Assembly (NCBI GenBank): GCA_027308685.1
Contig: DAIDEE010000042.1
Coordinates: 124,001 to 188,000 of the forward strand
Direction: 5' to 3'
Length of the DNA: 64,000 nt
DNA from: Acidocella sp.
GTDB taxonomy: Bacteria > Pseudomonadota > Alphaproteobacteria > Acetobacterales > Acetobacteraceae
Both the position numbers and the translations under genes were made by a program. This document shows positions 27,288-38,519 of the stretch, piece after piece. Under the pieces are notes generated by a model that worked only from the letters and a program-made list of their open reading frames with translations, did not search any database and was not told the DNA's origin. Within the stretch, counting starts at the first letter, position 1, and the number at the start of each line of letters is the position of its first letter.

Positions 27288-27592
27288 TTGCTCCCGTCAC
27301 CCTTAGCTTGTCTGGCCTGATATCAGTGGCCGAATCTCTCATCCTCATATTGTTCTTATTGGTCGTTTCAGTATTTATCTTAAAAAAACTCTCAGGCACG
27401 CGGCTACGCCCTCCGTTTCTAGCGCCGTCGTCTATCCAAGTCATTGCGTCGCGGTCACTTGGTTGGCAATCATCAATAATGATTGTTGAAGCGCAGGGAA
27501 CCCGCTTCTTGATTAGTACCGGTCGTGGCGGCGTTACGGCGATTGGTGTGTTAAATATAGCGCCCACCGTCGGCAGCGGAGATCTGAAATGA
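27284..27592 (+). CDS. fliO: FliO-like flagellar export protein
   Basis: FliO helps FliP to assemble. This 102-residue protein has one N-terminal membrane helix (about 15-36) and a small cytoplasmic domain with IQVIASRSLGWQSSIMIVEA, where the typical family form is 'v.s...Lg....l.vV.v.g....lG'. Position between fliL and fliP, with ATGA overlaps on both sides, supports the assignment. FliO is poorly conserved, so confidence is moderate. Confidence 0.8.
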   Translation: MIAPVTLSLSGLISVAESLILILFLLVVSVFILKKLSGTRLRPPFLAPSSIQVIASRSLGWQSSIMIVEAQGTRFLISTGRGGVTAIGVLNIAPTVGSGDLK

Positions 27593-28353
27593 GGCGATTT
27601 ATCAGCCTCGGATTACTCTCTTGTGTATTGTTAGTGCTTGGTAGCCAAGTGGTGGCCGCAGCACCGCCAGATGGGATTACTTTAATGAGTTCCGCACCTG
27701 GTACAGTTGGCGAGACCTACTCTCTGAATGTCCAGACATTACTTATGGTCACTGGTCTGGCTTTCCTACCCGGCCTCTTGTTACTCATGACAGGGTTTAC
27801 CCGAATTATAATTGTATTGTCTGTTCTACGTCAGGCATTAGGGCTTCAAACAACGCCGCCTAATATGGTTCTTGCGGCTCTGGCGTTGGCCTTAACGGTG
27901 TTCGTGATGCGCGGTGTCATTCAACAGGAGCAAAACAATGTTGTGCAACCATACCTTGCTGGGCAAATCAGTTTTGACAGTGCGATGACCGCCGCAAAAC
28001 CGCCAATTCAGAATTTCATGCTTGCACAGACCCGGGCAGATCCCTTGCACCTATTTGTTGATCTTAGTGGTGGGCACTATAAGGAACTTCACGAAATACC
28101 GCTTACTGTCCTTGTTCCGGCTTTTGCTACGTCAGAGCTGGAAACCGCATTTCAAATTAGTTTCCTGATTTACATCCCATTTGTCTTAATCGACTTAGCT
28201 GTTGCGTCGGTATTAATGTCGCTTGGCATGATTATGGTATCGCCGACACTTATTTCATTACCACTCAAACTTTTGATGTTTGTTTCAATTCATGGCTGGG
28301 TATTGGTATTGGGTTCAATAGCAAATAGTTTTGTTATCGCTCCGGGGAGTTAA
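27589..28353 (+). CDS. fliP: Flagellar export gate protein FliP
   Basis: FliP is a core protein of the export gate (a pentamer around FliR). The 254-residue protein has an N-terminal signal-like helix. The conserved LPGLLLLMTGFTRIIIVLSV region is followed by LRQALGLQTTPPNMVLAALA. Near the C terminus, IPFVLIDLAVASVLMSLGMI is followed by MVSPTLISLPLKLLMF, both hallmarks. The start overlaps fliO, and fliQ follows after three bases. Confidence 0.96.
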   Translation: MRRFISLGLLSCVLLVLGSQVVAAAPPDGITLMSSAPGTVGETYSLNVQTLLMVTGLAFLPGLLLLMTGFTRIIIVLSVLRQALGLQTTPPNMVLAALALALTVFVMRGVIQQEQNNVVQPYLAGQISFDSAMTAAKPPIQNFMLAQTRADPLHLFVDLSGGHYKELHEIPLTVLVPAFATSELETAFQISFLIYIPFVLIDLAVASVLMSLGMIMVSPTLISLPLKLLMFVSIHGWVLVLGSIANSFVIAPGS

Positions 28354-28356
28354 ATT

Positions 28357-28632
28357 TTGCCCTTATTCACAAAATTACTCCACGACGCGCTGTTAACAGA
28401 ATTATCAGCTGTTACGCCTATCATCGTTCTATTACTTGGCGTTGGTCTTACAACAGCCATTGTTCAGGCGCTATTTCAGATTGAGGACACGGCCTTCAGC
28501 TTATTGCCAAAAATTCTTGTCATGGTCGCAATCGCCGTATTTGGAGGTTTTGGCGCATTACAGGCCTTTGATGGTTTAGCTATTTTATGGATTAGTCATG
28601 CCCCAAATTTGGTTTATCACGCATGGTCCTGA
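28357..28632 (+). CDS. fliQ: FliQ-like export gate protein, second copy
   Basis: This 91-residue protein with two membrane helices stands in the standard FliQ place between fliP and fliR. GVGLTTAIVQALFQIEDTAF followed by SLLPKILVMVA matches the FliQ core G.....iQ..tQI.e.tl.f.pK. The rest is more divergent than the copy at 12823-13086: GGFGALQAF replaces the usual GPWM-like stretch. The start is TTG, seven bases after GGGGAG. It could be the working gate subunit, with the other copy an extra, or the two could mix. The gene overlaps the fliR start. Confidence 0.82.
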   Translation: MPLFTKLLHDALLTELSAVTPIIVLLLGVGLTTAIVQALFQIEDTAFSLLPKILVMVAIAVFGGFGALQAFDGLAILWISHAPNLVYHAWS

Positions 28633-29390
28633 ATGAGTCTGAGGTCCTCGGATGGCTTGGAAAATTTTTATGGCCGTTTTTGAGAATTACAGGATTGTTT
28701 CTGACGGCACCATTATACAATTCGGCCTTCATTCCACGAATTGTAAAAATAGCGGTCTCAGCGTCTTATGCAGCATCTTTGGCTATGTGGTTGCCGGCGT
28801 TACCAATTTTTCCTGCCGATCCTGCTTCAATCATTCTGCAGGGGTTAATGCAGATCAGCATTGGTGCATTGCTGGGCATGGTGATGCAGATTATTGTTTC
28901 AGCAGTTGCGTCCGCCGGTGAACTTGTGGGCCTCTCAATCGGACTTGGTTTTGCGGAAGTGCAATTTCGGGAAGCCAATTCGGCGACACCGGTGCTTTTC
29001 GATTTGATGTTTTGGGCAGGTCTTATTGGATATATGGTGGCGGGCGGACCAATATGGTTATTTGCGGCATTGGCACATACGTTTCACAGTGGTGTCGGCG
29101 CTACCTCGATCGAGTCGTGGAAAGAACTTTTATCTTTCGGTAGTACTCTCATTGGTAGCGCCGTGTGGCTGGCTCTACCGGTCTTGGCGGTTTCGCTTTG
29201 TGTTAATATCATTGTTGGGCTGACAACTGTATTCGCACCCCAGATGAACTTGTTGACAATCGGGTTCCCCCTATTAATCCTTGTAGGCTTATGGATATTT
29301 ACGACTTCAGTTAGCTATTTAGACCACGATATTAAAATTCTTTTTCTTCAAGCTACAACAGCTGGCATAAAAATACTGTCGCATGTCTGA
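28623..29390 (+). CDS. fliR: Flagellar export gate protein FliR
   Basis: FliR closes the FliP-FliQ channel. The 255-residue protein has six hydrophobic segments, with FLRITGLFLTAPLYNSAFIP near the N terminus, GLSIGLGFAEVQFREANSAT in the central loop and FAPQMNLLTIGFPLLILVGL near residue 220, the last two being strong family signatures. It overlaps the end of fliQ and the first eight bases of flhB. Confidence 0.95.
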   Translation: MVLNESEVLGWLGKFLWPFLRITGLFLTAPLYNSAFIPRIVKIAVSASYAASLAMWLPALPIFPADPASIILQGLMQISIGALLGMVMQIIVSAVASAGELVGLSIGLGFAEVQFREANSATPVLFDLMFWAGLIGYMVAGGPIWLFAALAHTFHSGVGATSIESWKELLSFGSTLIGSAVWLALPVLAVSLCVNIIVGLTTVFAPQMNLLTIGFPLLILVGLWIFTTSVSYLDHDIKILFLQATTAGIKILSHV

Positions 29391-30507
29391 GGGTGGACAA
29401 GACAAGCAACATGCCCCTACCGAGCGTAGGCTCAGGCAGGCTGCAGAACAAGGTAATGTAAGACGCTCGGCGGATTTACCAAAGGCAGCCGCTGTTGTCC
29501 TGGCGTTAATTGTCACCATAAATAGTGCAGGCAGTTTCGGTGACGATATCTCCGGATTGTTAGCGTCGTGGTTGTCAAATGCCGGCTCTTACCATCCGGA
29601 AGTGGCAATGAAATGGGCTAATGACCTCATGGCACATTTTGCACCGCTACTGGGTCTGATTGTCATGCTATCTTCAGCTAGCACATTGATTTCAGGTGGT
29701 TGGGTCTTAACAATAAATCCGCTAATACCTGATCTGTCGAAATTTTTGCCGGGTCATGGACTAGGGCAGATATTTTCGGCTTCCGGCCTAGCCGAAACTG
29801 CCAAGTCTTTTTTGAAGTTTATCATTATCGGTGGCCTCGGCGCACTAATGATTATTTCGCACGCCCACGATTTTGTTGCCCTTGCAGTCGTACGGGCCCC
29901 TGGATTTAGTCTCGTTTTGTCGCTCTGTTTAAGCATACTTACTACGGTCTGCGTTGGTGTCATCGCACTTGCGGTTATTGATGTCGGGCTGCAATTTTTT
30001 CTGCACAGGCAGAAACTTCGTATGTCTGATACCGAGATGCGCGATGAAATGAAGGAAGCAGTGGGTAACCCGCATGTCCGCCAGCGTCAACGAGCGATGG
30101 CGCGGCGCATGGCACGTACCCGGCAAATGAAACGCATCCCGGAAGCTTCAGTCATCGTGACTAACCCTACTCACTTCGCAGTAGCCATTCGCTATCGTCG
30201 TGGCGCAGATGTAGCACCAATTATGCTCGCCAAAGGTGTTGGGTTACTCGCCGAGGAGATCATGAGCCGAGCGCGTGCATTAGGAATTCCCGTCATTGAG
30301 GCGCCACCGCTTGCCCGCGCCATGTATCGTCACGTAGAACCCGGAGATCAAGTGCCGGTAGCACTATATCGTGCGTGTGCTGAGGTTCTTGCGTATGTGT
30401 GGCGAATGCAGTTATGGCGCACGTCCGGTGGTATCAAGCCCCAGCCACCTATATTGCGTCGTATGGTGATCGCGCCCGAGTTTCAGGTGCCTGAGTCATC
30501 TGGTTGA
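29383..30507 (+). CDS. flhB: Flagellar export switch protein FlhB
   Basis: FlhB sets the substrate specificity of the export gate. The N terminus (DKQHAPTERRLRQAAEQGNV), four membrane helices up to about residue 205 and the cytoplasmic domain with EMRDEMKEAVGNPHVRQRQR are typical. The self-cleavage site NPTH is present at about 261-264 in VIVTNPTHFAVAIRY. Length 374. It is the last gene of the rightward block and ends 16 bases before the stop of the convergent GT39 gene. No strong terminator hairpin is seen in that gap. Confidence 0.96.
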   Translation: MSEGGQDKQHAPTERRLRQAAEQGNVRRSADLPKAAAVVLALIVTINSAGSFGDDISGLLASWLSNAGSYHPEVAMKWANDLMAHFAPLLGLIVMLSSASTLISGGWVLTINPLIPDLSKFLPGHGLGQIFSASGLAETAKSFLKFIIIGGLGALMIISHAHDFVALAVVRAPGFSLVLSLCLSILTTVCVGVIALAVIDVGLQFFLHRQKLRMSDTEMRDEMKEAVGNPHVRQRQRAMARRMARTRQMKRIPEASVIVTNPTHFAVAIRYRRGADVAPIMLAKGVGLLAEEIMSRARALGIPVIEAPPLARAMYRHVEPGDQVPVALYRACAEVLAYVWRMQLWRTSGGIKPQPPILRRMVIAPEFQVPESSG

Positions 30508-32206: not shown

Positions 32207-32773
32207 TCAGCCGTTCAAAAATATCGTCGGGCGTGGCATAAACATGCCGGCGCGGCGCTGGTAGGCGGCGTAGTCATTGCGAAAGTCGGAATCTGCAAAC
32301 TTGCGTTCCTCACGGCTGGCTGCGTGCTGATACACTGCCAGCATCACCAACGGGGTCAGCCATGGCAGCGCACCCGAGAATGCCACCGCCGTACCGGTCC
32401 AGAATAGCATATACGAAAGGTAAAACGGATGGCGAACGTATTGGTAGGGCCCGTGCAGCAACAAAAAGGCGGGCTTATCGGTGTCAAACGCCAAGGTCGG
32501 CGGAGTCCGCCGGGTGGCGTTGATCGTCCAGTTGAAAAGTGCCAGCGATCCCACAAAAAGCCATAAAGCCACATCCGCCTGCGCGGAGATGTCCATCAGG
32601 GCCAAACGGCCGGCAAAGATTATAAATCCCAGCAGGCTTAGCAGGCTCACCAGTTTCATGCCTGGTGGCATTTTGCCGGTGGAACGGAAATGGCCTTTCA
32701 CACCCCACGAGAAACTAGCAAAACAGGCAAAGCCAAACACAAACAGTGTGGCTGCGGTATATGAGTGGCTCAT
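32207..32773 (-). CDS. Isoprenylcysteine/phospholipid methyltransferase-like membrane protein
   Basis: The 188-residue protein has about five hydrophobic helices. GPYQYVRHPFYLSYMLFW (about 109-126), and then REERKFADSDFRNDYAAYQ near residue 155, are the two conserved motifs of the ICMT/PEMT family that bind S-adenosylmethionine and the methyl acceptor. Known family members methylate the carboxyl group of a lipidated cysteine, or phosphatidylethanolamine. The gene follows the FeeM-like acyltransferase gene after only two bases, so both should be made together. I infer that the acceptor could be the acyltransferase product, a lipidated amino acid, but this is not proven. A general lipid methyltransferase is the alternative. 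Confidence 0.8.
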   Translation of the reverse strand: MSHSYTAATLFVFGFACFASFSWGVKGHFRSTGKMPPGMKLVSLLSLLGFIIFAGRLALMDISAQADVALWLFVGSLALFNWTINATRRTPPTLAFDTDKPAFLLLHGPYQYVRHPFYLSYMLFWTGTAVAFSGALPWLTPLVMLAVYQHAASREERKFADSDFRNDYAAYQRRAGMFMPRPTIFLNG

Positions 32774-32775
32774 GA

Positions 32776-33519
32776 TTACTTGCTCCCAAAAACATCAACG
32801 TTTTCGCCGCGAAACAGGCCATCATAGGCGCCGGTTTCCAACGCGCGCGAATCCACAATTGGAAAATTCTGAAGGTTTGCGGTGTAGTCCTGCCGTGGGC
32901 ACGCCATCAGGTTGGTCTCAAATTTGACCCCGGCATATTTACGTGGACCCGCGACATTCTGGAAATTCAACCGCTTATAAAACGGTGTATGGTTTCGCCG
33001 CACACAGGATAGCATCATATCCGAACCCTCCCTCAAAACCATGAACGAGACGAAACGGAACAAAACAAACACCAACTCAACATCGGTTGCAAAATCCGGA
33101 TGCCGCACCAAGCGGTTGATCTCGGTAGCTTTTGAGGGGCGCTGCGGCGCCGAAACATTTGCCAGTAATGTTTCCACATCTTCCGGAAAAATCCGGTTTG
33201 CAGGAATTTCCGTATATCCACGATGATTATCAGAGTCGAGAATGCACAGTCGCACCGACGCCACTGGGCGAGCGTGTTTATAAATCACGATTGACTGGCA
33301 GTTGGGCTTCTCATCGTCTGCATCTTGGAACAGCCCACTAGGGGTTGGGTCGATGTAACCACCGGACAGATAACTGAGGTAGCGTAGCCCATAGGCATCA
33401 GACCTGGTTTTAGGATCGACGGCCAACCGGGCCGTTAAGCCCGAGCTTTCCAGTGCTTGGAGCCGGTCCCGTCTTTGTGGCTTGGCGAATGAAACTGCGG
33501 CGGTTTGTAAATTACTCAT
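32776..33519 (-). CDS. FeeM/autoinducer-synthase-like N-acyltransferase
   Basis: The protein (247 residues) looks like the N-acyl amino acid synthase (FeeM) branch of the GNAT/LuxI-like fold. Visible are RYLSYLSGGYIDP (46-58), IVIYKHARPVASVRLCILDS (beta strands of the acetyltransferase core), ATEINRLVRHPDF (corresponding to the E-x-R region of LuxI-type enzymes) and NHTPFYKRLNFQNV (GNAT-like 'FY.rlGF'). AAGGAG eight bases before the ATG supports the start. It would move an acyl chain from acyl-ACP to an amino acid or similar amine, at the cytoplasmic side. It forms a two-gene operon with the methyltransferase-like gene downstream and is divergent from a GGDEF-EAL gene. No LuxR-type receptor gene is next to it. 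The assignment is by pattern; an unrelated GNAT enzyme is possible. Confidence 0.68.
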   Translation of the reverse strand: MSNLQTAAVSFAKPQRRDRLQALESSGLTARLAVDPKTRSDAYGLRYLSYLSGGYIDPTPSGLFQDADDEKPNCQSIVIYKHARPVASVRLCILDSDNHRGYTEIPANRIFPEDVETLLANVSAPQRPSKATEINRLVRHPDFATDVELVFVLFRFVSFMVLREGSDMMLSCVRRNHTPFYKRLNFQNVAGPRKYAGVKFETNLMACPRQDYTANLQNFPIVDSRALETGAYDGLFRGENVDVFGSK

Positions 33520-33980
33520 TTATAACTCCTTAAATTGCAACCATAACGCGAGGCATTATTAACTATTTCCCGCCTCTGATGCAGCATTTTTGTTTTGGCA
33601 AAATCTGGACGGCCTCAATATTTTTTCTATTCATTCTAAATATGAGCTTTGAATGCGAACTCATTAAAATTATTGATGAAAATTTTCACGAAAGCTCTGG
33701 TGGGCGACCATAAATCCCCGGAAACCTCCCTGTTTCACTGCCACAGGCTCAGAAAGTGGAAGGATTTTAACGGAAATTAACTTTGGGTGGTGATTATTTG
33801 AAATTTTCTATTTAAAATGGTATTTATTCGATTTTATGGTAAAGACAGTGCGAGGAGCATATACCTGCTGTCACCTCGTGCCGAGGTCGTTATATAGTTG
33901 CGATGTGTCAATTTTGGTGGAGTTTTGATTAAAATTATGAATTTTGAGCCTCTTTCTAGCCTCAAAATCCCATACGTCTG
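33520..33980. other. Divergent intergenic region between acyltransferase and GGDEF-EAL genes
   Basis: This 461-base region is AT-rich and has no coding frame I trust. It should contain promoters for both divergent genes. TTGAAA (33798-33803) with TATTTA after 17 bases is a weak candidate promoter toward the GGDEF-EAL gene. A perfect six-base inverted repeat ACCTCG-TGC-CGAGGT lies at 33873-33887, about 95 bases before that gene, and could be an operator or a short hairpin. I saw no c-di-GMP riboswitch signature. Confidence 0.5.
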
Positions 33981-36356
33981 ATGCAGTCTGTGTGGTCAAA
34001 ATGGCTGGCCAATCTCAACGGCACCCTACCCGCCGAGGCCTTGGTGCTGAGGGTGGGTGTTGCCGAGCGGGTTGGTTTCGAGCAGGCCACGGTGCTTGCC
34101 AACATCATGCGAATGATCGTGCTGGTTGGCGCGAATACAGCGATTTTTTTAGCGTGCGATTTTGCCGCCAAGGTATCGTCGCACAGCCCCTATACCCGTA
34201 TCGCCTACGCGCTGGTTGCCTGTATTTTCATTTGCTACTTCATCATTTTCAATGCCTGCTCGAAGTGGCTGAAAGACCCCACGCACTTCCAAAACGCATC
34301 ACAATTCATCCAAAGCATTCTCGTCGTCATGTGCATATTGTGCACATTTTGGGGCGTACTTATCGTTTGCCTCACGCTGGCAGCAGGCCCTCGGCAGCTT
34401 TCGCTTATCTACGGCGTCATTGTCGCGTGTCTTGCTATGCCGGCCCTGGTGGCGCCGGTCTCGGTGGCATTCGTGGCCTGGGCGCCAATCGCGACATTAG
34501 GCCTTATCTCGCTACTGATCCGGGCTGATAGAATAGACCCCTTCGCGCTCATATCGTTTGTAGGCTTTTTGGGGATGACTGGATTTGCCATAATCTATCT
34601 GAACCGTCGCCTGACCGAACGCGCACTCGATACCATTCGAATCGAGGAAAACAGCGAAGTCATCAGGCTGCTGCTGAGGGACTTTGAGGAAAGTGCCAGT
34701 GACTGGCTCTGGGAAACCAATGCCGACCTCGAATTGCAGCGTGTTTCACCACGCCTCTCGCAGGTGTCGCAAAAAAGCCCAGGCGAATTGGTGGGTAAGT
34801 TTCCAGGAGTATTTTTAGGAGATATGGCCAAATTCGACCAGCGGATCGGCTCTCCGGTTGCAAAACTGAACCGCTATCTAACTGACCGTTCAGCCTTCCG
34901 AGATCTGGTCGTGCCGGTGGTCATCGGTGGCGAGGAGCGCAGTTGGTCACTGACCGGTAAGCCGATTTTAGACCACACCGGCCGTTTCATCGGCTACCAT
35001 GGTGTTGGGTCCGACGTCACGGCCGCCCGGCGCTCGCAGGAGCAAATTGCCTTCCTGGCGCGTCATGACAGCCTTACCCGGCTGCCAAACCGGGTGTTAT
35101 TCAATGAGGTCCTCCATCAATCATGCTCACATTGTGAGGAGTACCCCGTAGCTCTCCTCTGTCTTGATCTCGATAATTTTAAAATGGTGAACGATTCTCT
35201 TGGCCATGCCACGGGCGATGCCGTGCTGGTCGCGGTGGGTGAGCGGATCCGCGGTTGTGTCCGCGATGGTGATACCGCCGCTCGTTTGGGTGGTGATGAG
35301 TTTGCAATCATCCTTGCAACTGATGACATCGAGGAGGTGGCAGTAGTGGCCCGCCGCGTGGTGGAACGCATCAGCCGCCCCTATCATTTCGATGGCAGGC
35401 TGGTTGAAATTGGTGTCAGCCTGGGTATCAGCTTGGCCCCGAAGGACAGCAAAACGCCCGCTGGCTTGCTTAAAAACGCTGATTTGGCGCTTTACAGGGC
35501 AAAATCCGATGGCCGCGGCACATGGCGGTTTTACGACCCCGAAATGGATGAACGGCTGCAAGGCCGCCGCAATTTGCAGGCTGATCTGCGTGAGGCGCTT
35601 CAGCATAGTGAATTCAGGCTGGATTTCCAGCCGATCATCGACCTGAGTACTGGTAAAATGGTGGCAGCCGAAGCTCTGTTACGCTGGCATCACCCTGAGC
35701 GCGGTCTCCTCTCGCCGGCATTATTCGTCCCCTTGGCCGAGGAAGCCGGATTGATCGGACCCATTGGCGCGTGGGTTCTGCGTCACGCTTGCATGGTCGC
35801 CGCCAAATGGCCTACCCACATCAGCATCGCCGTAAATTTGTCGCCCATTCAATTCCGCGACATTGGCTTAGTTGCGGTGGTTGATGATGTGCTGGCCGCA
35901 AGTGGCTTAGCCGCCAACCGCCTGGAACTGGAGATCACCGAAACCACGGTGCTTGAAACCAACAGCCAGACTGTTGATGCATTATGGCAATTACACGGCC
36001 GTGGTGTGCGCGTAGCACTTGATGATTTTGGCACCGGCTATTCAAGCCTGAGCTATTTGCGCCGCTTTCCCTTCGACAAAATTAAAATTGACCGCTCGTT
36101 CATCCGCGACCTGGGCCACGAGAAAGATGATTCCTCGATTATTCTGGCGATCATCGGCCTGGCCGGCAGCATGAATATGCTGGTCACGGCTGAAGGTGTC
36201 GAAACCATGGAGCAGGCATCCCTGCTGGCAGGCTATGGCTGCCCACAGGCGCAAGGCTATCTATTTTGTCGGCCAATTCCCGAAGGCGATATTCCTGCCA
36301 TGATGAACCGATTTCATCAGACCAGCGATATAAGCTATCTCACAAGATTGCAGTGA
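33981..36356 (+). CDS. Membrane PAS-GGDEF-EAL protein (c-di-GMP synthesis and breakdown)
   Basis: The protein (791 residues) starts with about six hydrophobic helices (about 42-207). A PAS-like domain follows (235-350, with a W-E-T-N-A-D-type start and ending GVGSDVTAAR). The GGDEF domain (about 355-515) has an intact RLGGDEFA, plus the inhibitory RDGD site five residues before it. The EAL domain (about 530-780) has an intact AEALLRWHH, a conserved Glu in LEITETTVLE, DDFGTGYSSL, KIDRSFI and AEGVET. Both activities could thus be real, which is typical of proteins tuned by a signal. It probably links a membrane or PAS signal to the motile/sessile switch. Its 3' end overlaps convergent lpxK by 17 bases. 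It faces the acyltransferase operon. Confidence 0.9.
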   Translation: MQSVWSKWLANLNGTLPAEALVLRVGVAERVGFEQATVLANIMRMIVLVGANTAIFLACDFAAKVSSHSPYTRIAYALVACIFICYFIIFNACSKWLKDPTHFQNASQFIQSILVVMCILCTFWGVLIVCLTLAAGPRQLSLIYGVIVACLAMPALVAPVSVAFVAWAPIATLGLISLLIRADRIDPFALISFVGFLGMTGFAIIYLNRRLTERALDTIRIEENSEVIRLLLRDFEESASDWLWETNADLELQRVSPRLSQVSQKSPGELVGKFPGVFLGDMAKFDQRIGSPVAKLNRYLTDRSAFRDLVVPVVIGGEERSWSLTGKPILDHTGRFIGYHGVGSDVTAARRSQEQIAFLARHDSLTRLPNRVLFNEVLHQSCSHCEEYPVALLCLDLDNFKMVNDSLGHATGDAVLVAVGERIRGCVRDGDTAARLGGDEFAIILATDDIEEVAVVARRVVERISRPYHFDGRLVEIGVSLGISLAPKDSKTPAGLLKNADLALYRAKSDGRGTWRFYDPEMDERLQGRRNLQADLREALQHSEFRLDFQPIIDLSTGKMVAAEALLRWHHPERGLLSPALFVPLAEEAGLIGPIGAWVLRHACMVAAKWPTHISIAVNLSPIQFRDIGLVAVVDDVLAASGLAANRLELEITETTVLETNSQTVDALWQLHGRGVRVALDDFGTGYSSLSYLRRFPFDKIKIDRSFIRDLGHEKDDSSIILAIIGLAGSMNMLVTAEGVETMEQASLLAGYGCPQAQGYLFCRPIPEGDIPAMMNRFHQTSDISYLTRLQ

Positions 36357-37299
36357 CATTACGCAAAATCGCCTCCAAAGCCGTCGCATCATCCCATGCC
36401 AGATGTACCCTCACCGCCATTGTCTGCGCTTTCAATTCAGCGGGCAGCTTCACAAAATCCTTCTCGGTGGTAAGCAACTGAGCCTGTTGGGCATGGGCAG
36501 TCGTCATCAGCGAAGCCGCATCGGCGTTTGAGTAAACATGATGATCCGGAAACGTAATTTTTGTAATAATCTCGGCGCCTAATTGCGATACCGATTCAAA
36601 AAATTTTGTGGGCCGGCCAATCCCAGCAAACGCAACCACCCTCGCTCCAGGCAGTGATGTATCGCAGGTAGGTATAATACGTGCTCGCAACACAGGCATA
36701 TTAGCGGGCAACTGGCTTTGCGCCCCCACAACGTCATCGCCAATCATAACAGCAGCGATGCAACGCGCCGCAGCGGCCGCGACCGGTTCACGCAGCGGGC
36801 CGGCCGGTAACAAATATCCATTCCCAAAACCGTAGCCACCATCCACCACTAAAAAAGCCGCGGTCTTCTGCAAGCGGGGGTTCTGCAACCCATCGTCCAT
36901 CACAATCGCGCTCGCCCCCATCTCACGCGCTAATGTTGCCCCAGCGGCACGATCATGCGCCACAATGGTCGGGGCGGTCATGGCCAGCAGCAAAGCCTCA
37001 TCGCCAACCTCCGCCGCACTGTGGCGTACAGGGTCAACCAAAATCGGCCCGCTCAAAAGCCCACCATATCCACGTGTCAGAGCAAATGGCTTGCCAGATA
37101 ATCTGGCTAAAATATCTCGTGCCAAAATGGTCTTTCCAGACCCACCAACACTGGCATTCCCTACGCAAAAAACTGGCAGGCCAACGTCAAACCCTAACTT
37201 GGCAACCCGCTGCGCCGTCAGCCCGCGCGTCACCAAGCTGAAAGGTGCGAGCAACCTTGCAACCAAACCATCCACCATCCAGAAAGCGGGCGCCCTCAC
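36340..37299 (-). CDS. lpxK: Tetraacyldisaccharide 4'-kinase LpxK
   Basis: LpxK adds the 4'-phosphate to the lipid A precursor at the inner membrane. The P-loop CVGNASVGGSGKT is at about 45-57, FALTRGYGG follows, and the strong signature VMDDGLQNPRLQK lies at about 133-145. The family's usual length is about 320 residues; this has 319. The gene is the last of a long leftward run, its ATG overlapping the waaA stop. A hydrophobic N-terminal helix (about 10-25) should bring it to the membrane. Confidence 0.95.
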   Translation of the reverse strand: MRAPAFWMVDGLVARLLAPFSLVTRGLTAQRVAKLGFDVGLPVFCVGNASVGGSGKTILARDILARLSGKPFALTRGYGGLLSGPILVDPVRHSAAEVGDEALLLAMTAPTIVAHDRAAGATLAREMGASAIVMDDGLQNPRLQKTAAFLVVDGGYGFGNGYLLPAGPLREPVAAAAARCIAAVMIGDDVVGAQSQLPANMPVLRARIIPTCDTSLPGARVVAFAGIGRPTKFFESVSQLGAEIITKITFPDHHVYSNADAASLMTTAHAQQAQLLTTEKDFVKLPAELKAQTMAVRVHLAWDDATALEAILRNVTAIL

Positions 37300-38519
37300 A
37301 CACTGGTCTCCCGGATTAAATTTGCCAATTTGGCGGGCAAATCCTCAACCCCGGCAAACGCCAGTCGCGCCGCATCACCAGCTACCCTTACGGCTTGCTC
37401 ATCACGCAGCCAACGTGCCACCGCCGCCGCCAGACCCGCCGCATCCGAGACTTCCATAATCGCGCCACAGCCGCGCAATTTATCCACCAGTTCAGGAATA
37501 TCGCTGGTGTAGGGCCCGCTGATAATTGGCAGCCCCAGCCGTGCCGCTTCAGATATATTATGGCCACCAACCGGCACCAGCGAGCCGCCGATAAATGCGA
37601 ATGTGCAAAGCCGGTAAAACAGCCCCAACTCGCCCAGTGTATCAGCAATATAAATTTGACCCGCCACGGGCGCTTCGCCCTGCGAGCGGCGAGGGCTTGC
37701 AAATTCCGTCCCTCGCTCTGGATGACGCGGCACAATAAGGGTGACGAGATCAGGAAATTCCGCCAGCAATATTTCATGTGCCGCAGCCACAATGGCTTCC
37801 TCACCCGCGTGAGTACTGGCGGCCAGCCATACAGGCCCGGTAATATCATGTTGCAGCTGAGCCAACGCTGCGCGGTCATACGGCAGCAGCGGTGCGGCAA
37901 ATTTCAAATTCCCCCATTCCAGAATCCCGGCGGCGCCCAGGGATTTGAAATTGGCGGCATCGGCTTTTGACTGCACATGAATATATCGGAAACCAAACAC
38001 CAGAATATTTGCAAATTTCGGCAGCTTGCGCCACCGCGCCGCCGAACGGGCCGACAGGCTGGCGTTGATCAGCAACCGCGGAATCCCATGCTGGTCAATT
38101 TTTGCCAGCGTCGTCGGCCATAACTCGCTCTCCACAAACACCGCGATATTGGGTCGCCAGTGACGCAAAAACGCCTCCACCCAATCAGCGACATCAAGCG
38201 GGATAAACTGATGCCGAGCATGAGCAGGTAAGCGTTCGGCGGCTAGTTGCGCTGAGGTCAGCGTACCGGTGGTCAGCAGCACCTCGCAACGCCCTGCCAG
38301 CGCCTCGACCACCGCCAGTACTGACATCGTCTCTCCCACGCTGGCTGCGTGTAACCATACCAGTTTGCCAGCCGGGCGAGGGCAGGAGGCGATACCGAAA
38401 CGCTCGCCCAACCGCGCTGGGTCCTCTTTGCCGCGGGTTACGCGCCTGCTCAGCATCCGTCGCAACAAGGGTGCAGCAAGTGTGCCCACAGCGGCATAGA
38501 TATTAAACGCCAAACTCAT
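37296..38519 (-). CDS. waaA: Kdo transferase WaaA (KdtA)
   Basis: WaaA transfers Kdo from CMP-Kdo to lipid IVA. The 407-residue protein begins with a membrane anchor and shows RLGERFG, WLHAASVGETMSVLAVVEAL with the likely catalytic Glu, FVESELWPTTLAKIDQHGIP, LINASLSARSAARWRKLP and GGSLVPVGGHNISEAARLG, all WaaA hallmarks. Both ends overlap neighbours by ATGA. The order acyltransferase-like, waaA, lpxK gives a small lipid A/Kdo module at the end of the operon. Confidence 0.95.
   Translation of the reverse strand: MSLAFNIYAAVGTLAAPLLRRMLSRRVTRGKEDPARLGERFGIASCPRPAGKLVWLHAASVGETMSVLAVVEALAGRCEVLLTTGTLTSAQLAAERLPAHARHQFIPLDVADWVEAFLRHWRPNIAVFVESELWPTTLAKIDQHGIPRLLINASLSARSAARWRKLPKFANILVFGFRYIHVQSKADAANFKSLGAAGILEWGNLKFAAPLLPYDRAALAQLQHDITGPVWLAASTHAGEEAIVAAAHEILLAEFPDLVTLIVPRHPERGTEFASPRRSQGEAPVAGQIYIADTLGELGLFYRLCTFAFIGGSLVPVGGHNISEAARLGLPIISGPYTSDIPELVDKLRGCGAIMEVSDAAGLAAAVARWLRDEQAVRVAGDAARLAFAGVEDLPAKLANLIRETSV

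Follow-up and report, generated by a model that had tools for sequence, protein, structure and literature searches.

Within the window (the whole stretch of 64,000 nucleotides of Acidocella DNA that was analysed), a FeeM/NasY-type synthase (FeeM), a membrane methyltransferase (MT) and a c-di-GMP protein with a membrane sensor region (the sensor protein) form a gene set that probably yields a methylated lipid-amino-acid molecule. The three genes remain linked through rearrangement and fusion in Acetobacteraceae. With about even confidence, we regard them as one module, in which an N-acyl amino acid methyl ester is made by FeeM and MT and is sensed by the c-di-GMP enzyme. More generally, we propose for FeeM-type enzymes the function of making a lipid that is read by a dedicated c-di-GMP sensor.

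The features of the gene set are shown in Table 1. The first-pass annotation had described a FeeM-like enzyme and an ICMT/PEMT-like membrane methyltransferase two bases apart, which was confirmed by the PF21926 and PF04191 matches and by the ICMT fold of the MT model. In the Acidocella window, MT lies two bases downstream of FeeM on the same strand, and sequence reading revealed AAGGAG before the FeeM start within the intergenic region. The module is flanked by flagellar export genes (fliP/fliQ/fliR/flhB-like) and lpxK/kdtA-like genes (window 27589-30507 and 36340-38519), whose names were taken from ORF reading and not from a search.

Table 1 Features of the FeeM gene set in the window
Feature	Position	Strand	Properties
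FeeM/NasY-type N-acyl amino acid synthase	32776-33519	-	247 aa; candidate catalytic Glu133 in EINRLV; PF21926 101.8 bits
ICMT/PEMT-superfamily membrane methyltransferase (MT)	32207-32773	-	188 aa; RHPFY114-118 and EE155-156 invariant
Divergent membrane sensor-PAS-GGDEF-EAL protein	33981-36356	+	791 aa; candidate receptor; Pfam domains, motifs intact
Divergent intergenic region	33520-33980	.	blocks conserved with two close Acidocella relatives (alignment, 3 sequences)

The window FeeM exceeded the curated PF21926 cut-off of 27 bits by a wide margin and was the sole match to this family in its genome (genome search); in a control, matches were found in 1 of 14 well-known genomes. No Pfam domain besides FeeM was detected up to an E-value of 1, hence neither PilZ nor homology to RpfF. 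Likewise, no match to TIGR03694 (PEP-CTERM/exosortase-associated acyltransferase) was listed up to an E-value of 1, and the identity of an exosortase-linked N-acyl amino acid synthase (NAS) was rejected on this ground. Glu133 was invariant in an alignment of 25 Acidocella-group FeeM proteins and aligned, via the glutamate of a FeeM protein from G936, with chain position 96 of FeeM 2g0b. The active-site glutamate of FeeM is numbered Glu95 (PMC4897644); taking the one-residue offset as a matter of numbering, Glu133 appears to correspond to this residue. In the rhizobial and Rhodobacteraceae rows of the alignment, the putative catalytic Glu was mostly Asp, and L238 and L239 had neither. Judged from its family, the window FeeM would produce N-acyl amino acids.

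For the window MT, the best curated match was PF04191 (PEMT), a marginal pass (26.5 bits; cut-off, 25). The protein fell below the ICMT cut-offs (PF04140, 20.6 versus 24; NF040696, 38.1 versus 160), and the ICMT fold was seen in its predicted structure. Elsewhere in the host genome, a stronger match to PEMT (48.9 bits) was obtained. The divergent gene had been annotated as making and breaking c-di-GMP, and its predicted GGDEF and EAL domains, both with intact motifs, agree with this. Six helices precede the PAS domain in the AF2 model of the sensor protein (five segments by hydropathy), and residues about 31-220 were modelled at pLDDT 80 or more. Comparison of the sensor region with known structures by Foldseek gave nothing at an E-value of 0.001 or better. 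In four loci (L112, L113, L117 and L118), the sensor protein has 508-568 aa, with a GGDEF but no EAL motif.

A gene-neighbourhood check across Acetobacteraceae, as proposed in the first-pass annotation, found the FeeM-MT pair to be conserved. In a named scan of genome contigs, MT was located directly downstream of FeeM in 32 of 38 loci; among the others, three (L107, L114 and L119) are cut off by the contig end within FeeM or directly behind it, two Acidocella loci (L086 and L110) continue downstream of FeeM without MT, and in L112 MT is reduced to a broken piece beside FeeM. A search of 61 genomes gave 49 places, and the pair was present in 27 of the best 30; L007, one of the three pairless places, ends at a contig edge. 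The named scan and the 61-genome search share contigs, and several loci of the named scan recur in the whole-genome searches (for example, L113 as L185 and L116 as L183); the counts from the pair search, the named scan and the 259-genome tally below overlap and are not additive. The c-di-GMP gene was present in all 21 neighbourhoods compared (20 fetched stretches and the window), and the genes farther out differed between genome groups. In these neighbourhoods, the ORF caller called an antisense ORF ('c17') by mistake in L040, L041, L044 and L047 and missed MT in L041, L043, L046 and L047; the genomes with such errors hold both FeeM and MT in the pair search (L015, L016, L019, L025, L018 and L024). 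FeeM proteins were only 46-60% identical to the window FeeM in 23 of 24 compared and yet were linked, so linkage outlasts sequence. Cultured carriers of the whole set include Acidocella aromatica DSM 27026, A. aquatica NBRC 112502 and A. aminolytica DSM 11237.

We also tallied the gene set in 259 Acetobacteraceae genomes by using profiles A1 (FeeM), A2 (MT) and A3 (the N-terminal sensor region, ending where PAS begins), with adjacency defined as within 2.5 kb. The tally comprised all 41 FeeM places, 23 MT places above 120 bits plus one weak match (G620:C81, 46.7 bits) and 50 of 62 sensor places (above 44 bits); the other MT places, all below 50 bits, were left out. FeeM was detected in 30 genomes. 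Its 41 places, two of which (G541) come from a single gene that is split, were accompanied by MT and sensor (22), a weak MT and sensor (1), sensor only (13), MT only (1, at a contig end) or neither (4, weak or fragment matches). Thus, the sensor occurred within 2.5 kb of 36 FeeM places and a strong MT beside 23, and the c-di-GMP gene, which had been taken as a mere divergent neighbour, is in fact the more constant partner of FeeM. As 13 places have a sensor without MT, the link between FeeM and sensor needs no methyl ester. Copies of FeeM without MT that still adjoin the sensor are found in L189, L190, L191 and L247-L250.

Almost all strong MT places (22 of 23) lay beside FeeM, with the next-best MT matches dropping from 121 to 49 bits, and so did 34 of the 35 sensor places counted as strong (at least 195 bits); among 15 weaker sensor places (44-165 bits), two were beside FeeM and 13 away from it. 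The exception in both strong sets was G601, in which MT and sensor are kept and the stretch between them gave no FeeM. By these data, FeeM and the sensor form the core of the set and MT is a frequent accessory or tailoring partner, hardly ever present without them in Acetobacteraceae. The conserved pair, the 21 neighbourhoods and the 259-genome tally reject chance neighbours as an explanation of the gene set.

Two smaller observations concern copies that depart from this arrangement. In the Acidocella locus of G601 (L176; G601:C11, 334-3837), the 516 bases that separate sensor from MT yielded no FeeM, and this sensor-MT combination could possibly be a signal-reading 'solo'. On plasmids of Acidiphilium multivorum and A. 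cryptum (L120 and L121), FeeM occurs without MT or a GGDEF gene near plasmid replication genes and adjoins a divergent gene, which in L120 has a weak helix-turn-helix match.

The arrangement of the three genes has changed while their association was retained. The sensor gene is divergent in Acidocella, whereas elsewhere in Acetobacteraceae the order is FeeM, MT and sensor on one strand, often with overlapping genes (L113, L116, L117, L118, L181 and L182). In three loci belonging to two genera, MT is fused to the sensor-PAS-GGDEF-EAL protein in one open frame (L172, 967 aa; L173, 1087 aa; L174, 993 aa). The fused MT parts scored 165-197 bits to profile A2, remained below the Pfam cut-offs and kept RHPFY and EE. 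A tentative reading, which we hold to be possible rather than probable, is a lipid signal and receptor system whose methylating enzyme and receptor are joined in a single polypeptide in some species; the last step of signal synthesis would then take place on the receptor itself.

Profile A1 reached only near relatives at class level (2 of 385 genomes), so PF21926 was used for the wider searches. In 299 Pseudomonadota genomes, 26 FeeM places above 80 bits were identified, 18 of which were in families f171 and f174, apparently Bradyrhizobium-like and Rhizobiaceae organisms. When genes of 120 aa or less are disregarded, each of these 18 FeeM genes has a GGDEF-EAL gene as its next upstream neighbour, and on a Rhizobium tumorigenes plasmid a GGDEF phosphodiesterase gene adjoins a FeeM-like gene. 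Homology between the rhizobial and the Acetobacteraceae sensor regions was undetectable (hhalign 0.3%), and for this reason a common origin of the two was set aside.

The remaining eight places were those of the window, G883, G681, G936 (two), G726, G837 and G712. In G681 (L239:4696-6536), a gene of the leucine carboxyl methyltransferase (LCM) family (PF04072, 107.8 bits; also above the TIGR00027 cut-off) overlaps a fusion of FeeM and a cyclic-nucleotide-binding domain by four bases. G883 has FeeM with a class I methyltransferase and a histidine kinase, a combination also present on Sulfitobacter plasmids (L122 and L271) and in G988 (L258). In G936 (L220:5236-9696), ThiF and class I methyltransferase genes lie between two FeeM genes, a set that resembles the N-acyl dehydrotyrosine gene sets in the available text of PMC12479983. 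A class I methyltransferase gene is found three genes on from FeeM in G726, a FixG-like gene next to FeeM in G837, and a nuclease-domain gene next to FeeM, near a contig edge, in G712. On a Deinococcus actinosclerus plasmid (L123:3928-7286), a fatty acid desaturase gene and a FeeM-like gene are followed by two class I methyltransferase genes, and the FeeM-like gene of Palleronia (L270) has neither a methyltransferase nor a sensor annotated beside it. These class I pairings say little on the carboxyl group, because the authors of the Stieleria work assigned the class I methyltransferases encoded close to NAS genes to C-methylation of the tyrosine ring or O-methylation of its hydroxyl (PMC12479983, available text). 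At class level, 54 of 385 genomes had PF21926 matches above the cut-off, most of them weak; around 18 weak matches with fetched surroundings, MT and sensor of the window type were absent, save for a PAS-level match in L139. When one genome per genus of Rhodobacteraceae was examined, FeeM was found in 4 of 85 genomes (one being the query's own), and therefore the system is sporadic there.

One of these four Rhodobacteraceae genomes, G945, carries, in this order, genes for a histidine kinase, an MT homologous to that of the window (6.5e-25) and FeeM. The same order was observed on two Loktanella salsilacus plasmids, one of which is 97.8% identical to G945, with MT and FeeM overlapping by four bases. 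The L. salsilacus gene annotated as an acyl-homoserine-lactone synthase scored 129.9 bits to FeeM versus 24.6 to the autoinducer-synthase family. The Loktanella proteins are 34% (MT) and 22% (FeeM) identical to those of the window. A quick FeeM tree (with long branches for L238, L270, L123, L239, L143 and L233) separated Loktanella from the Acetobacteraceae set, which requires the ICMT-type pairing to have arisen twice; the MT tree was poorly resolved, with 16 of 23 inner branches open. The Loktanella-related isolates F13, F14 and D3 are described as producing N-acylglycine methyl esters, which were reported as natural products and not artefacts, since methanol had been avoided (PMC6296433, text available in part). 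The accessible part of a 2024 paper reports a lack of candidate synthase genes for the Roseovarius esters (PMC11580390), and in the genome note of Roseovarius tolerans the only synthases named are of the LuxI type and are assigned to its AHLs (PMC4582587). Among PLSDB plasmids, no Roseovarius match was obtained with the queries used. The L. salsilacus pair may make N-acylglycine methyl esters, the strains with the pair being different from the ester-producing strains. A gene pair similar to that of Acidocella occurs in marine Loktanella, a known releaser of such molecules, and the cultured Acidocella carriers together with the L. salsilacus pair make the module directly testable.

ICMT and leucine carboxyl methyltransferase both methylate the alpha-carboxyl of an N-acylated residue. 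Since members or relatives of both adjoin FeeM in separate lineages, the carboxyl is favoured over other sites, and carboxyl methylation by the window MT is likely. It should be noted that LCM proteins are themselves class I methyltransferases, and thus the FeeM-methyltransferase pairings span two methyltransferase folds, not more. The methyl ester as the product of FeeM and MT has, in our estimate, a somewhat better than even chance of being correct. The serial action of the two enzymes proposed in the first-pass annotation is therefore upheld in part: co-occurrence, the methyltransferases beside FeeM in other lineages and the Loktanella pair speak for it, whereas the pass of a PEMT rather than an ICMT profile and the ring or hydroxyl assignment in Stieleria (PMC12479983, in its available part) speak against. 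Because this precedent weakens the class I pairings, our estimate for the methyl ester, our overall confidence and the one-polypeptide reading were all lowered.

Relatives of the window MT were also found away from FeeM. In 14 rhizobial plasmid records, MT homologues were 36-39% identical to it, closer than that of Loktanella, and FeeM adjoined none of them in the three plasmids examined. In these three, the MT relative adjoins a divergent alpha/beta hydrolase gene (L266:6871-8528, L267:6858-8504 and L268:6858-8504), a pairing that perhaps serves ester making and breaking. Matches to MT elsewhere in six FeeM-bearing rhizobial genomes were weak (best, 43.6 bits).

On the preferred explanation, FeeM would, as expected from its family, N-acylate an amino acid with a long-chain acyl group taken from acyl-ACP. 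The membrane MT would then, with SAM, esterify the free alpha-carboxyl to give a neutral N-acyl amino acid methyl ester, a step suggested by the gene linkage, the fold and the Loktanella pair. Linkage and fusion are consistent with a further step, in which the lipid would partition in membranes and move between cells, the membrane/PAS part of the sensor protein would read it, and the sensor protein would then alter c-di-GMP via its GGDEF and EAL domains. That the neighbouring sensor protein is the receptor of a FeeM-derived lipid is, in our view, a little short of an even chance; it is proposed because the linkage is constant, MT and sensor are fused in some species, histidine kinases occupy the same place in Rhodobacteraceae, and the PAS domain of RpfR offers a precedent.

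Three other explanations have to be considered. The product might be a membrane lipid or a surface-active one, with or without a methyl group, whose production is tied to a switch between biofilm and motility, with the c-di-GMP enzyme controlling output instead of acting as a receptor. Known NAS enzymes give biosurfactants in E. coli and NAS-PilZ proteins have suggested control of the synthase by c-di-GMP, i.e. the reverse direction (both from the available part of PMC4897644), and the c-di-GMP gene is retained beside FeeM copies that lack MT. However, the window FeeM has no PilZ, FeeM being its sole domain match, and both the existence of c-di-GMP proteins in which MT is joined to a membrane sensor and the replacement of the c-di-GMP gene by histidine kinases in Rhodobacteraceae fit sensing better, so that we consider output control unlikely, though the strongest of the three. 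A distinctly smaller chance is given to an MT that acts otherwise than on the carboxyl of an N-acyl amino acid, either as a PEMT-type enzyme or on a ring or hydroxyl. The marginal PEMT match (26.5 versus 25) as the best curated profile, the separation of the rhizobial MT relatives from FeeM in all three plasmids and the tyrosine ring or hydroxyl methylation read by the stieleriacine authors (PMC12479983, available text) would fit such an enzyme; by contrast, the presence of 22 of 23 Acetobacteraceae MTs beside FeeM, with many FeeM genes lacking MT, is the pattern of a tailoring enzyme, a second, stronger PEMT match is present in the same genome, and methyl esters are known from Loktanella, which has a pair of this kind.

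Free acids harm cells at low pH, and Acidocella is an acidophile. Methyl esterification could therefore serve detoxification, removing the acid group of N-acyl amino acids that, as protonophores, would harm an acidophile. This is very improbable in view of the plasmids of Acidiphilium, likewise an acidophile, on which FeeM has no adjoining MT in the two records fetched of three, and of the MT pairing in marine Loktanella; besides, the fusion of MT and sensor would be left unexplained.

Compared with known systems, the window set shows several likenesses and differences. No recognised description of a set of FeeM/NAS, methyltransferase and c-di-GMP genes was met in the open-access PMC literature, in agreement with the earlier statement that no system with this exact logic had been described. 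With known FeeM/NasY enzymes (FeeM 2g0b), the window protein shares a profile passed widely and the Glu at the catalytic position, and differs in its linkage to a methyltransferase and a c-di-GMP sensor. Within Acetobacteraceae, three Acidiphilium type strains are the only reported carriers of NasY in the accessible text of a survey (PMC8776678), as against FeeM in 30 of 259 genomes by profile A1 here. A study of aggregation in Acidiphilium sp. C61, in its available part, found no autoinducer genes (PMC7142476). The stieleriacine NAS sets resemble the window in that a NAS gene is near a methyltransferase gene; they differ from the window in that the methyltransferase is a soluble class I enzyme accompanied by ThiF and nitroreductase genes, and no c-di-GMP gene is named in the available text (PMC12479983). 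NAS-PilZ proteins (Nas343/Nas354) carry a c-di-GMP binding domain inside the synthase, whereas in the window the cyclase/phosphodiesterase is separate and FeeM has no PilZ. The expected product class is the same as that of the N-acylglycine methyl ester producers, and the FeeM and ICMT-type pair occurs in L. salsilacus. With regard to ICMT (Ma-ICMT 4a2n; eukaryotic ICMT 5v7p), the window MT is below the family cut-offs and would not be expected to act on a prenylated protein. An analogy may also be drawn with rpfF and rpfR, which are neighbouring genes. In RpfF/RpfR of Burkholderia and Cronobacter, a fatty-acid-derived signal (BDSF) is bound by the PAS domain of RpfR, a PAS-GGDEF-EAL receptor protein (PMC6361424, text available in part). 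As in that system, a PAS-GGDEF-EAL gene lies beside the synthase gene, with a sensor near most FeeM places in the family; in contrast to it, the synthase family is unrelated, the sensor is membrane-bound and there is an extra methyltransferase. By analogy, the window set may thus work like RpfF/RpfR, though it is not a member of that system.
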